Below are positions 19,040 to 23,410 of a DNA stretch of 64,000 nt, one piece after another. Within the stretch, counting starts at the first letter, position 1, and each line of letters starts with the position of its first letter. The notes below the pieces were generated by a model. It was not told the DNA's origin, did not search any database, and was given only the letters and a program-made list of their open reading frames with translations. The position numbers were made by a program, and so were the translations under genes. Source of the DNA: Dehalococcoidia bacterium (GTDB lineage Bacteria > Chloroflexota > Dehalococcoidia > Lucifugimonadales > Lucifugimonadaceae); the NCBI GenBank assembly GCA_014239735.1, contig JAAZYI010000024.1:122670-186669 (forward strand), in the 5' to 3' direction.

Positions 19040-19472
19040 TCGTTCTTTCAATTAGTTGAGGTAAAAGAAAACATGTTATTAAAGCGTAAAATAATAGATT
19101 ACTAATTTTATGAATATTAACACTCGCTCCTCTAATTAATAGAAATATTAAAAAAATAAAAGGGAATGAAAGTGCCAAAAAAAGGTAATAAAAAAAACCA
19201 TTAGTGTAATTTTGAATAAAATATAAATAACTAAAACCTAAAAAAATAAATAATAATAAAGAGGTTAAATTAATAACAAAAACAGCCAGTATATAAATTT
19301 TTAAAATTGATTGATTTTTATTAAGAAAGAAATTAAACAATTGGGATGAAGTTTTGGTCATAACAATTGCTGAATATGCAGTCAATATTGAGCTATAAAA
19401 TGTTGATACTAAAAAAACACTAATTATCAATATCGAATCCTTTGTTAATAGTTGAATATTTTTGAAAATCAT
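19032..19472 (-). CDS. Hypothetical four-helix membrane protein
   Basis: 146 residues with four strongly hydrophobic segments (about 12-35, 55-80, 88-112 and 124-142). I do not recognise a family. The ATG at 19472 lies inside the end of ispE, overlapping it by 53 bases; an in-frame TTG at 19430 would shorten but not remove the overlap. The reading frame is AT-rich like its neighbours. It could be a real small membrane protein cotranscribed with rsmA and ispE. The lack of recognised motifs keeps confidence moderate. Confidence 0.6.
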   Translation of the reverse strand: MIFKNIQLLTKDSILIISVFLVSTFYSSILTAYSAIVMTKTSSQLFNFFLNKNQSILKIYILAVFVINLTSLLLFIFLGFSYLYFIQNYTNGFFYYLFLALSFPFIFLIFLLIRGASVNIHKISNLLFYALITCFLLPQLIERTIS

Positions 19473-20247
19473 CAGATTTTATATTTTTATTGCTTATAGA
19501 AATCAAAGTCATTCCAGCTCCAGTAAGAAAACAATTACCAAATTTTTCTAACATTTGATGATATTTTTCATTTAACTTAGGAAATTTAGTTAAAGCTTTT
19601 TTCTGAAAACAATTAAAATAATCTTGAGAGACTAGAGACTCATTATTTTGAATTTTTTCCTTTACTTTTTCTGTTAATTTACCATCTGTATAATCATCAG
19701 GTTTTATTGAATTAAACATAAATTGAGTCTTATTATTTATAGTGATTTCAGAATCATATAAATAAACATAAGAATTCCTCAAGTCATTTAATTGATAAAC
19801 TTTTTCACCAAATCCTTCAACTAAGCATGTTCCTCCTTTGAAGAAAAAAGGAAGATCTGAACCTAATTTTGATGAAAATAGCGACAATTCTTCTATTGGA
19901 ATATTTAATTTAAGAATATTATTTATTGCCATTATCACCGAAGAGGCGTTACTAGATCCTCCTCCAAGACCAGAAGAAATTGGTATTTTTTTATTAATAA
20001 TAATCTCAAACGAGTTATTTAGTTTATAAGTGCTCTTGAAGCATTTGATAGCTTTGAAAGCTATATTGTCCTCTTCTGGCACAAATCCATTCTTCAATAT
20101 AATGGAATCATGATCAGATTCATTTATATTAATTTCATCTCTTAGATTAATATTTTGATATATGCCTTTAAGGTCATGATATCCATTTTCTAATTTGCTT
20201 AGTATTTCAATTACTAAATTTATTTTTGCGTAAGAATATATTTTCAT
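19420..20247 (-). CDS. ispE: 4-diphosphocytidyl-2-C-methyl-D-erythritol kinase
   Basis: 275 residues. GHMP-kinase motifs are PISSGLGGGSSNASSVI (ATP loop, about 91-107) and the C-terminal LTGAGMTLISI. The N-terminus SYAKINLVIEIL carries the conserved Lys/Asn. It phosphorylates CDP-methylerythritol in the MEP isoprenoid pathway. It overlaps rsmA by four bases and continues the lepA-rsmA-ispE operon. The C-terminal 18 codons overlap the next reading frame. Confidence 0.95.
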   Translation of the reverse strand: MKIYSYAKINLVIEILSKLENGYHDLKGIYQNINLRDEININESDHDSIILKNGFVPEEDNIAFKAIKCFKSTYKLNNSFEIIINKKIPISSGLGGGSSNASSVIMAINNILKLNIPIEELSLFSSKLGSDLPFFFKGGTCLVEGFGEKVYQLNDLRNSYVYLYDSEITINNKTQFMFNSIKPDDYTDGKLTEKVKEKIQNNESLVSQDYFNCFQKKALTKFPKLNEKYHQMLEKFGNCFLTGAGMTLISISNKNIKSDDFQKYSTINKGFDIDN

Positions 20248-21038
20248 AATTCAATTATTGTATTAAATATTTTTAACCAATCATTATTTTCTAAATTACC
20301 TGGTCTTAATTTTGGGTCAATATTGATTTTTATTAATTCATTACTCAGCAATCTCTTATCTATCTTCAAAGATAGTGACAATGAATTGACTAAGGTTTTT
20401 CTTGGAGCAGAAAAACCTTTCTTTATAAAACTTAATAATTTTTCTGGCTCACCTATAATTTCATTATCTTTTTTTGTTTCTAATAATATTATTGATGAAA
20501 TTACATTAGGTTCTGGATTAAAAGCTTCTTTTGGAACATCAGTAATTTTTTCAACTTTTGAATATGTTTGAATTGAGTGGCCTAGAAATTTCATTTTAGG
20601 AACTGAAGATAAATAATTATCAGCAACTTCTTTTTGAATCATTATAATTAAATATTTTGGCTTAAAAGTAGCAGTAATAAAATTTCTAACTATCATATTT
20701 GCTGAATAATATGGCAAATTTCCAACTAATAAATATGGATCTTGAAAAAAATCATGGTCATCAATATTAAATAATCCAGCATCTAAATTTAGAAAATCTG
20801 TATTACCATCTCTATATTTATTAATTAAATCTAAATATAGCTTTTTATCTAACTCTATACCTAAAAAATTTGTTGAATATTTCACCAGATCCGATGTTAT
20901 TGACCCAGTTCCAGGCCCAACTTCCAAAATATTCTTTATTCCAAGATTATGAACATAATCAATGATAATTTTTTTATATCTTAGATCTGTTAAAAAATGT
21001 TGCCCTAATTTCGGCTTTTTGTTGCTATTTCGCTTCAT
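20244..21038 (-). CDS. rsmA: 16S rRNA dimethyladenosine transferase (RsmA/KsgA)
   Basis: 264 residues. The N-terminus KPKLGQHFL, SAM motif LEVGPGTGSITSDL (about 39-52) and catalytic LVGNLPYYSANMIV (about 103-116) are diagnostic. It dimethylates two adjacent adenosines near the 3' end of 16S rRNA. The ATG overlaps the lepA end by 14 bases, so translation is likely coupled. The family is secure. Confidence 0.97.
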   Translation of the reverse strand: MKRNSNKKPKLGQHFLTDLRYKKIIIDYVHNLGIKNILEVGPGTGSITSDLVKYSTNFLGIELDKKLYLDLINKYRDGNTDFLNLDAGLFNIDDHDFFQDPYLLVGNLPYYSANMIVRNFITATFKPKYLIIMIQKEVADNYLSSVPKMKFLGHSIQTYSKVEKITDVPKEAFNPEPNVISSIILLETKKDNEIIGEPEKLLSFIKKGFSAPRKTLVNSLSLSLKIDKRLLSNELIKINIDPKLRPGNLENNDWLKIFNTIIEL

Positions 21039-22851
21039 TTTTTAACACTGCCATAAAAGCTTCTTGAGGGACTTCTACAGAACCAAGTCTTTTCATTCTT
21101 TTTTTTCCTTCTGCCTGTTTTTGCAATAATTTTCTTTTTCTTGAGATATCGCCACCATAACATTTAGCAGTCACATTTTTTCTTAACGCCTTAACTGTTT
21201 CTCTTGATATAATCTTACTTCCCACTGCTGCCTGAATAGGTATATCAAACATTTGCCTAGGGATAAGTTCTTTTAATTTCGAAACTAATTGCCTGCCAAT
21301 CGGCAAAGAATTTTCTGAATGTACTATTATAGAAAGAGCATCTACTTTCTCTTCATTTACAAGAATTTGTAATTTAACTAATTTCTCATCCTTTGGTTTA
21401 GTAAGTTGATAGTCCATTGATGCATATCCTTTGGTAGAAGATTTTAATTGGCTATGAAAATCAGTTAATATCTCAGCCAAAGGCATATTAAACTCTAATA
21501 AGACTCTTTGATTATCTGCGTCTGAGCTTTCTCCCCCACCTTGAAGCCATTCCATCTTTCTATATTCACCTCTTTTATTTACTACTATATCTATTACTGG
21601 CCCTATAAAATTTGATGGGCATACTATTGATAAATCAACAAATGGCTCCAGCACTCTTTGAATTTTTTCATCTTCTGGCCATTTAGAAGGATCATCAACG
21701 TCTATAACTTTTCCTGAAACTGTTTCTACTGTGTATTTAACAGTAGGGGCAGTGACAATCAAATCAAGCCCATATTCTCTTTCTAAGCGCTCTTGAATAA
21801 TATCCATATGCAAAAGCCCTAAAAAACCACATCTGAACCCAAAGCCTAATGCACCAGAACTTTCTGGCTCAAAAATTAGTGAAGCATCATTTAATTGCAA
21901 CTTACCTAAAGCATCTCTTAAATCAGAATAATCATCTCCATCTATAGGATAAAGACCGCTATATACCATTGGTTTTGATGACTCATAGCCCTTTAATGAT
22001 TCTTTTGATGGGTTTTCTTTAGTAGTTAATGTTTCTCCTACCCTGCAATCAGAGACATTTTTTAACCCTGTCGCTACATATCCAACTTCACCTATAGTTA
22101 ATTTATCTATTTCACTAAGATTTGGCTCAAAAATTCCCACTTCATTAGCTTCAGCAACTTTTTTTGTAGACATTAACATTAAATTTTCATTCTTATTAAT
22201 CTCTCCATTAACTACTCTTACATAAGCTATTACTCCTTTAAATTGATCATATTTTGAATCAAAAACTAAAGCTTGTAATGAGTTAGTGATATCTCCGGAG
22301 GGAGGTGGAATTTTATTAATTATTTGCTCTATTAAATTTTCTACTCCCTCTCCCGTTTTTGCAGACACTTTTAATATTTCTTTTTCATCAAAACCAAGAG
22401 ATGAATTAATTTCACTAATTACTCTATCTACTTGGGCATTAGATGAATCAATTTTATTAAGCACTGGAATAATTACCACATCTTGCTCAATGGCTAGATA
22501 AACATTAGCTAAAGTTTGCGCCTGTATTCCCTGAGTACAATCAATTAATAATAATGCCCCTTCACATGCAGCGAGAGATCTTGATACTTCGTAATTGAAA
22601 TCAACATGACCTGGAGTGTCAATTAAATTTAACTGGAAGTTAGAGGATCCTGACATATAATTTAACCTCATTGCTTGAGCTTTTATTGTAATACCTCTTT
22701 CTTTTTCAAGGTCCATCGTATCAAGCAGTTGATCTTCAGAAGTACCCTTTTCTTTGCCCAATGAAATATCAATAAGCCTATCAGCTAAAGTTGACTTGCC
22801 ATGATCAATATGAGCAATAATTGAAAAATTTCTTATATATTTCTTATCCAT
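21025..22851 (-). CDS. lepA: Elongation factor 4 (LepA)
   Basis: 608 residues from the ATG at 22851. The frame stays open upstream through the tRNA, but homology begins at MDKKYIRNFSIIAHIDHGK. G motifs are DHGKSTLADRL, DTPGHVDF and NKID. The LepA-specific C-terminal domain is present, with GGDISRKRKLLQKQAEGKKR near the end. It is a ribosome-associated GTPase. The start is only three bases beyond the encoded CCA of tRNA-Leu, leaving no room for a normal ribosome site after tRNA processing. First protein gene of the lepA-rsmA-ispE operon. Confidence 0.98.
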   Translation of the reverse strand: MDKKYIRNFSIIAHIDHGKSTLADRLIDISLGKEKGTSEDQLLDTMDLEKERGITIKAQAMRLNYMSGSSNFQLNLIDTPGHVDFNYEVSRSLAACEGALLLIDCTQGIQAQTLANVYLAIEQDVVIIPVLNKIDSSNAQVDRVISEINSSLGFDEKEILKVSAKTGEGVENLIEQIINKIPPPSGDITNSLQALVFDSKYDQFKGVIAYVRVVNGEINKNENLMLMSTKKVAEANEVGIFEPNLSEIDKLTIGEVGYVATGLKNVSDCRVGETLTTKENPSKESLKGYESSKPMVYSGLYPIDGDDYSDLRDALGKLQLNDASLIFEPESSGALGFGFRCGFLGLLHMDIIQERLEREYGLDLIVTAPTVKYTVETVSGKVIDVDDPSKWPEDEKIQRVLEPFVDLSIVCPSNFIGPVIDIVVNKRGEYRKMEWLQGGGESSDADNQRVLLEFNMPLAEILTDFHSQLKSSTKGYASMDYQLTKPKDEKLVKLQILVNEEKVDALSIIVHSENSLPIGRQLVSKLKELIPRQMFDIPIQAAVGSKIISRETVKALRKNVTAKCYGGDISRKRKLLQKQAEGKKRMKRLGSVEVPQEAFMAVLKNEAK

Positions 22852-22854
22852 AAG

Positions 22855-22938
22855 TGGTGGGGGAGAAAGGAGTCGAACCTTCACGCCTTGCGGCACATGC
22901 TCCTAAGGCATGCGTGTCTGCCATTTCACCACTCCCCC
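22855..22938 (-). tRNA. tRNA-Leu (anticodon UAG)
   Basis: The reverse strand folds as a class II tRNA. The acceptor stem pairs GGGGGAG (22932-22938) with CTCCCCC, followed by discriminator A and an encoded CCA (22855-22857). The anticodon stem is CATGC/GCATG around the loop CTTAGGA, so the anticodon is UAG. The long variable arm (TGCCGCAAGGCGT) and the T-arm with GGTTCGACTCC support leucine identity. It lies directly upstream of lepA. Confidence 0.97.
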
Positions 22939-22990
22939 GTATTATATTGTTTCTAAAAGAAATTATAACAGTACATATTTATAATTTTCA

Positions 22991-23410
22991 TTAGGAAAGG
23001 AAATCAAGTATATACAAAGTTTCTCCATTAGCGTTAATAAATTTTATAGGTTCTTCACTTTGAATATGCATTTTTGCCTTATCAGATAAATAAAATAATG
23101 GATCTCTTTTAGCTACAATTTCTTTGTCAACAAATGAAATATCTAATTTAAGATATTCTAGATTGACTAATTTATTTGAAATTAATAAATCTAATGATTC
23201 TTCAAATATCTTATCCAATTGAATATCTAAATTTTTATTGTTAAGAATTTTATTATTAGGATCATATTTTTTATATGAATTTTTAATTCTTAGAATTAAA
23301 CCCTCTTTTAAAATATTTAACCCAATAGGATCTTTTTGAAATACTAAGAACTGAAGTATAGGTCTAAATAGTTCATTAATTCTTAAAGGGTTTGAAAATT
23401 CAAAATTCAA
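22991..23410 (-). CDS. Hypothetical protein
   Basis: 139 residues, soluble, rich in Lys, Asn and Leu; no signal peptide or membrane segment. I recognise no domain. The start overlaps the panB end by four bases (ATGA), which supports a real gene translated with panB. It ends about 50 bases upstream of tRNA-Leu. Any role in pantothenate synthesis would be speculation. Confidence 0.7.
   Translation of the reverse strand: MNFEFSNPLRINELFRPILQFLVFQKDPIGLNILKEGLILRIKNSYKKYDPNNKILNNKNLDIQLDKIFEESLDLLISNKLVNLEYLKLDISFVDKEIVAKRDPLFYLSDKAKMHIQSEEPIKFINANGETLYILDFLS

Follow-up and report, generated by a model that had tools for sequence, protein, structure and literature searches.

tRNA-Leu(UAG) directly before lepA in a genus of Dehalococcoidia: a candidate for tRNA punctuation in bacteria

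In the genus of small-genome ocean bacteria studied here (g1), the elongation factor 4 gene lepA starts 3 or 9 nt behind tRNA-Leu(UAG) in every genome with a complete lepA. The best-supported reading of this arrangement is that tRNA maturation would leave a near-leaderless lepA mRNA, whose expression may depend on the processing, because the junction is present at 5/5 loci, lepA of relatives carries a leaderless signature at 34/43 loci, an SD sequence precedes it at 0/43, and a suitable −10 element lies in the tRNA at 0/5. We consider it fairly probable that the arrangement works by tRNA punctuation, in which lepA would share the promoter of the tRNA and tRNA 3′ maturation would free its near-leaderless mRNA.

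The junction in the window and in its genus

The window is a stretch of 64,000 nt on contig 24 of a Dehalococcoidia genome (G000; GCA_014239735.1; 1.29 Mb assembled, 89% complete), which by LepA similarity and genome size looks SAR202-like (Chloroflexota). The features around the junction are as follows.

22962..22991, minus strand: putative promoter of the tRNA (and of lepA by read-through), ATGAAA-18 nt-TATAAT with TG before the second hexamer
22855..22938, minus strand: tRNA-Leu, anticodon UAG, CCA encoded (ARAGORN; Rfam RF00005)
22852..22854, minus strand: 3-nt spacer CTT between CCA and ATG, read from the sequence
21025..22851, minus strand: lepA (elongation factor 4), 608 aa, without SD (TIGR01393; start in agreement with relatives)
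20244..21038, minus strand: rsmA/ksgA-like rRNA adenine dimethyltransferase gene (Pfam PF00398, 112.7 bits), overlapping the end of lepA
19420..20247, minus strand: GHMP kinase gene (putatively ispE-like; Pfam PF00288, 51.8 bits), overlapping the rsmA-like gene

The tRNA reached 55.9 bits with RF00005 (gathering score 29), and its 3′ terminus reads ...CTCCCCC-A-CCA, so the CCA is encoded in the gene. The LepA/EF4 model TIGR01393 matched with 909.9 bits at a cut-off of 533.9. A preliminary description of this DNA had placed three bases of the same strand between the CCA end (22855) and the lepA ATG (22851), and the sequence and ARAGORN agree on this spacing; the ATG occupies 22851-22849 on the minus strand, as does the tRNA. 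That description had also called the T-arm and acceptor, where a ribosome site would have to lie before processing, not purine-rich; by eye, no purine-rich SD is in reach of the ATG at this locus, and the closest purine-rich stretch is GAAGG in the T-arm of the tRNA, about 30 nt on the 5′ side. If the cut falls right behind CCA, the CTT spacer is predicted to be the 5′ leader of lepA mRNA. The RNA fold of the junction has a z-score of 0.04 and carries no information.

No terminator-like site was found between the tRNA and lepA, and both lie on the same strand, as in a tRNA-mRNA operon. The putative promoter matches the consensus at 10/12 positions, has an extended −10 and ends 23 nt before the tRNA; its TGTTATAAT block is kept in the three closest genomes (L001-L003). 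In this AT-rich genome 3 such sites were found and 4.0 expected in shuffles, so that the site is weak evidence when taken alone. The rsmA-like gene is probably on the lepA transcript, and the GHMP kinase gene probably follows on the same RNA. An rsmA-like ORF, recognised by eye from GQHFL near its start, is downstream of lepA at 5/5 g1 loci. On the 5′ side of the tRNA, the window has panB (PF02548) and a 139-aa ORF. This ORF (22991-23410), between panB and the tRNA, has no Pfam match; it is present in three near genomes and does not stand before the tRNA in two other g1 genomes.

Ten genomes of g1 were examined, and five of them (G000, G005, G006, G007 and G008) have a complete lepA. In G002 a contig edge leaves just the end of lepA, and G001, G003, G004 and G009 gave no lepA match; the assemblies of G001-G004 and G009 are incomplete (55-83%). 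The preliminary description had suggested comparing the synteny of tRNA-Leu and lepA in relatives, and this comparison found tRNA-Leu(UAG) directly before lepA in 5/5 genomes with a complete lepA, with spacers of 3 or 9 nt. The spacers are CTT, CTT and TTT in three near genomes, and 9 nt in two genomes at 68% LepA identity. Compared with the window, third codon positions of lepA are 70 and 62% identical in two near genomes and the spacer is still 3 nt, and this persistence, rather than the existence of one tight junction, is the informative part. Two further matches with 94 and 92% LepA identity (L032 and L031) coincide with the contigs G005:C1 and G008:C17 and were not counted as independent cases. 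A T-stem pair of the tRNA changes by eye from A-U to G-C on both sides among g1 genomes. The gene before the tRNA differs by subclade, being either panB with the 139-aa ORF or a 428-aa ORF, and the order tRNA-lepA-rsmA is constant.

Other tRNA-gene junctions and compaction

ARAGORN found 31 distinct tRNAs in G000 (30 loci from the Rfam search), and 5/31 have a long ORF of the same strand within 10 nt downstream:

Leu(UAG)-lepA, 3 nt
Glu(UUC)-297-aa amidohydrolase-like ORF, 3 nt (no NCBIfam match; named from the sequence)
Val(GAC)-thrS, 6 nt
Arg(UCU)-aminotransferase, 10 nt
Ser(UGA)-epimerase-like ORF, 10 nt (weak NCBIfam matches only)

Over the ten g1 genomes, 25 junctions of 12 nt or less were collected (Glu 8, Val 7, Leu 5, Arg 2, Ser 2, Met 1), with 1 to 5 per genome and spacers of 2 to 11 nt; the count omits two Glu matches that lie at contig ends in G008. 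Junctions outside G000 were preselected by a pattern that requires ATG within 12 nt, and hence the 25 junctions are not a rate and the use of ATG among them is uninformative. Glu(UUC) precedes an amidohydrolase-like gene of 295-297 aa by 3-10 nt in 8/10 g1 genomes (L118, L181, L189, L191, L200, L163, L164 and L169).

For thrS, 30 loci were compared, 8 in g1 (L250-L257) and 22 outside (L258-L279), among which the tRNA-less L258 ends at a contig end. Outside g1, tRNA-Val(GAC) lies 89-308 nt upstream in 18/22 loci, and an SD 4-mer is present in 18/22. In g1 the gap is 2-6 nt in 7/8 loci and 73 nt in G006, and an SD precedes thrS at 0/8, the locus with the 73-nt gap included. The wide gap in G006 indicates that an abutting tRNA is not obligatory. 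Judged from these loci, thrS, SD-led in most relatives, would have lost its leader and SD and come to abut the tRNA in g1. At 7 thrS loci (one of g1), no Rfam match besides the tRNA was above its gathering score.

Seven g1 junctions with gaps of 20-38 nt all have an SD-like stretch by eye, with AAGGAG in 3/3 of those behind Glu(CUC), and junctions with gaps of at least 49 nt are mostly without one. Genes behind tRNAs would seem to use an SD or else a very short spacer.

A close fit of this kind may arise without any function. Under plain compaction the tRNA would be cut from a co-transcript without functional coupling, any leftover 5′ end would do in a lineage that tolerates leaderless and SD-less mRNAs, and the close fit would be neutral. 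This explanation overlaps with tRNA punctuation, since the RNA mechanism is shared and the meaning is different, and we regard it as evenly poised between right and wrong. Intergenic DNA makes up 6% of 184 kb of the window's genome by a simple ORF caller, and for a tRNA placed at random in intergenic DNA the probability that it ends 0-12 nt before a start of the same strand is 6.4%. Among 31 tRNAs, 2.0 tight junctions are expected in G000 and 5 are observed (binomial P 0.045), so that a single tight junction is not improbable and compaction alone could be sufficient for their number. Streamlined SAR202 genomes are described in the accessible part of PMC11994032, and the spread of g1 spacers from 2 to 11 nt is also in keeping with compaction. 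The same can be said of the weak use of SD in the window's genome, where SD was counted at 18/83 and 29/89 genes with controls of 8 and 11; for this reason a missing SD alone is no proof of leaderless translation. Against compaction, three junctions recur in g1 (Glu in 8, Val in 7 and Leu in 5 genomes) without drift to larger gaps except at thrS of G006, and the lepA gaps are stable although third codon positions of lepA differ by 30 and 38% in two near genomes.

A wider reading, which we hold tentatively and would rather doubt than assert, is that the SAR202-like, streamlined g1 would generally rely on tRNA 3′ maturation to make the mRNAs of several genes near-leaderless, replacing their former starts and tying translation-factor synthesis to tRNA maturation. 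It would then be the counterpart, in a free-living bacterium, of mitochondrial tRNA punctuation. The genes concerned would be lepA, thrS and the amidohydrolase-like gene, and in fewer genomes those of the aminotransferase and the epimerase-like protein; the starts replaced would have been promoter-made for lepA and SD-led for thrS. In the 184 kb, −10 elements at 4-10 nt precede 15/83 first genes (8 and 13 in two control windows) and 11/89 inner genes (controls 6 and 8), a mild excess from which we make no claim that leaderless genes are common genome-wide. A pattern search for the 16S 3′ end gave no match in the window's genome. The pattern T-arm-CCA-N{0,12}-ATG had 58 matches in the ten g1 genomes and its GTA control 33, several of which overlap ATG matches; this contrast is too weak, and only ORF-checked junctions were therefore used. 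One match in G000, at tRNA-His, was rejected as a gene junction, since the next feature is another tRNA.

Tight junctions, defined outside g1 as 12 nt or less with an ORF of at least 100 aa, were also counted in 12 genomes, six of the family, two of the class and four of the phylum. Pattern matches were examined completely in ten genomes, and for 8/13 in G112 and 5/7 in G096, the left-out matches not being tRNA-like by eye. In the family, G018 has two and G010, G016, G013, G023 and G048 have one each; in the class, G095 and G106 have one each; in the phylum, G112 has one and G092, G096 and G107 have none. The junction ORFs of G010 and G112 look spurious or misplaced. With 5 tight junctions G000 exceeds all 12 outside genomes, and the trait is not private to g1.

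Some further genes close behind tRNAs were seen. tRNA-Ser(GCU) lies before a tRNA-modification gene, which we take from its sequence to be miaB-like, at 20 nt in G000 (L132) and 11 nt in G016 (L228), in two genera. At L229, L239 and L248 (genera g5 and g8), a gene named metallo-hydrolase-like from its sequence begins 6-15 nt behind tRNA-Asp(GUC). In another family of the same class (L319 and L328; two genomes of one genus), an ORF of 261-263 aa begins 7 nt behind tRNA-Thr(CGU); the actual start may lie a few codons downstream.

Promoter signature and start codon of lepA

Outside g1, 43 lepA loci of the same family or order were read (L006-L030 and L134-L151, a subset of the lepA places listed). 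TAnnnT lies 4-9 nt before the start codon in 34/43, and in equal-width control windows further upstream in 1, 6, 2, 4 and 3 of the 43; SD 4-mers at −18 to −5 are found in 0/43. On these two counts the lepA mRNA looks ancestrally leaderless, and the ancestral mRNA was most likely made by a promoter and started at or near the start codon. The 9/43 loci in which the −10-like hexamer is absent may have an SD-less leader. At the five g1 loci, neither TAnnnT 4-9 nt before the ATG (0/5) nor, by eye, an SD (0/5) was found, and lepA of g1 accordingly shares with leaderless genes the lack of an SD and not the −10 element immediately before the start. We infer that the own promoter of lepA is missing in g1 and that the tRNA end stands in its place.

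At L027, in another family, 70 nt separate tRNA-Leu(UAG) from the lepA ATG downstream of it, and TAAAAT is still found 7 nt before this ATG; this single case from another family possibly represents an intermediate state. The same tRNA is upstream of lepA by about 1 kb at L025, with 5S rRNA between them on the other strand, and by 5.7 kb in G023. Flanks of up to 1.5 kb showed no tRNA at the other 23 loci of L006-L030 or at the 18 loci L134-L151. A linkage of tRNA-Leu and lepA ancestral in the order is possible. On a Mycoplasmataceae contig (L060), a tRNA-Lys ends 71 nt before a lepA match on the same strand.

Ribosomes might also start on the uncut or partly cut tRNA-mRNA without an SD, in which case lepA would not need tRNA processing; we find this improbable. 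SD-less genes are common in the window's genome, and elsewhere ribosomal protein S1 is known to assist initiation (accessible part of PMC5397173). However, a folded acceptor stem a few nt before the AUG would presumably lie within the space that the 30S subunit needs. In addition, an uncut tRNA is useless to the cell.

A promoter inside the tRNA gene could produce a primary lepA transcript with no or a short leader, as in the relatives, and we rate this as quite improbable. Promoters within tRNA genes are conceivable, and the −10-like element 4-9 nt before the start in 34/43 relatives gives this idea its model. However, TAnnnT is missing at 4-9 nt in 5/5 g1 loci, and the stretch in question is CTCCCCCACCA in three near genomes, fixed by tRNA folding. 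The preliminary description, which had proposed that lepA expression may depend on tRNA processing, had named a promoter within the tRNA and relatives with a normal leader as observations that would speak against it; no promoter was seen within the tRNA at the five g1 loci, and no SD-led lepA among the relatives read.

The start itself was set by one rule at all loci, taking an ATG within 10 codons of the IRNFSIIAHIDHGKS motif, or else GTG or TTG. In the window the ATG is 5 codons ahead of this conserved motif, and the position of the lepA start codon is well supported. A misassigned start, with the true one elsewhere behind an ordinary leader, is almost certainly wrong, since the chosen start is 2-6 codons ahead of IRNFSIIAHIDHGKS in 48/48 loci read, the window included, and the sole upstream in-frame start listed, a GTG inside the tRNA, would mean translating tRNA sequence.

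Proposed processing and known systems

According to the punctuation model, the tRNA promoter would drive a single transcription unit of tRNA-Leu(UAG) and lepA, which probably extends to rsmA and the kinase gene. RNA polymerase would read through the tRNA, RNase P would cut the tRNA 5′ end, and an endonuclease would cut at or just behind CCA, which would make the tRNA usable and leave about 0-5 nt of leader before lepA; in two sister genomes the leader could be as long as about 9-11 nt. The freed lepA mRNA would then be translated as a leaderless mRNA. In evolution, lepA would already have been leaderless, transcribed from a promoter of its own whose end lay 4-9 nt ahead of the start codon; in g1 this promoter would have gone missing, and the tRNA processing site would have taken over the definition of the mRNA 5′ end. 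Both thrS behind tRNA-Val(GAC) and the amidohydrolase-like gene behind tRNA-Glu(UUC) seem to be organised likewise.

In mitochondria, excision of flanking tRNAs releases leaderless mRNAs, which is called tRNA punctuation. The g1 junctions resemble it in having the start codon 0-10 nt behind a tRNA and no SD, and presumably also in an mRNA 5′ end made by tRNA 3′ processing and in near-leaderless translation. As in punctuation, a start of the same strand stands directly behind the tRNA, with no promoter in the 3-9 nt between them (no TAnnnT, 5/5). Unlike in mitochondria, the case is bacterial and concerns some genes only, the CCA is encoded, and the tRNA apparently has its own promoter. There is also no single polycistronic transcript split by many tRNAs, since the tRNAs are on many contigs and 5/31 abut genes. 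In the accessible part of PMC4633059, the term tRNA punctuation occurs in the title of a reference. The g1 arrangement would be punctuation-like in its working without being the mitochondrial system.

Bacterial tRNA-mRNA operons offer another comparison, because tRNA and lepA are on one strand, probably on one transcript, and would be separated by tRNA processing. In such operons, of which E. coli tRNA-tufB is an example, the protein gene retains its own leader and SD, unlike here, where the lepA spacer is 3 nt.

With leaderless bacterial genes, lepA of g1 shares the lack of an SD, and lepA of most relatives has right before its start the −10-like element that Zheng et al. 2011 used as signature (PMC3160421, accessible part). 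Unlike in those genes, the 5′ end of g1 lepA would stem from processing and not from a transcription start. The survey of Zheng et al. reported leaderless genes in 4/12 Chloroflexi genomes, at 4.7%, and the word tRNA does not occur in the accessible portion of its main text (PMC3160421). In E. coli, the stress-induced endonuclease MazF makes leaderless mRNAs (accessible part of PMC3848588). The g1 case would be like this one in that an endonuclease cut, and not a promoter, creates the leaderless 5′ end, and unlike it in that the cut would be routine tRNA maturation. Among the open-licence papers searched, no report of bacterial leaderless mRNAs from tRNA 3′ processing was found. It is plausible that g1 combines leaderless bacterial genes with a mitochondrion-like use of tRNAs.

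If this holds, the junctions point to a route by which a free-living bacterium acquires mitochondrial-style, tRNA-punctuated leaderless expression: the promoter of a gene that can already cope with a leaderless start is lost, and a tRNA processing site is used in its stead. The output of two translation genes would then be tied to tRNA maturation. Surveys that seek a promoter before the start codon would miss such processing-made starts, and metatranscriptomes could show whether leaderless translation in bacteria depends on processed monophosphate ends.

A tRNA must be excised from its transcript in order to function. Exonucleases by themselves would leave no downstream mRNA. Above their cut-offs, the models of RNase Z and RNase E/G each found 0/10 g1 genomes, with weaker matches in 9 and 6 genomes, and controls reached the cut-off in 9/14 and 6/14, respectively. 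RNase Y was found in 9/10 g1 genomes, and a role in tRNA-lepA cleavage would be speculation. In the accessible parts of PMC3848588 and PMC4681348, Propionibacterium acnes, described as lacking an obvious tRNase Z, cuts a few nt behind the encoded CCA or between the Cs, and Streptomyces coelicolor between the Cs. The g1 candidates for RNase Z are MBL-fold proteins that score no higher than 110.7 bits in the search of the genomes, or 137.3 bits when one protein is scored whole, at a cut-off of 292.95, and a divergent RNase Z among them is possible. Several g1 genomes carry such weakly RNase Z-like MBL-fold proteins (L282 and L280) in multiple copies.
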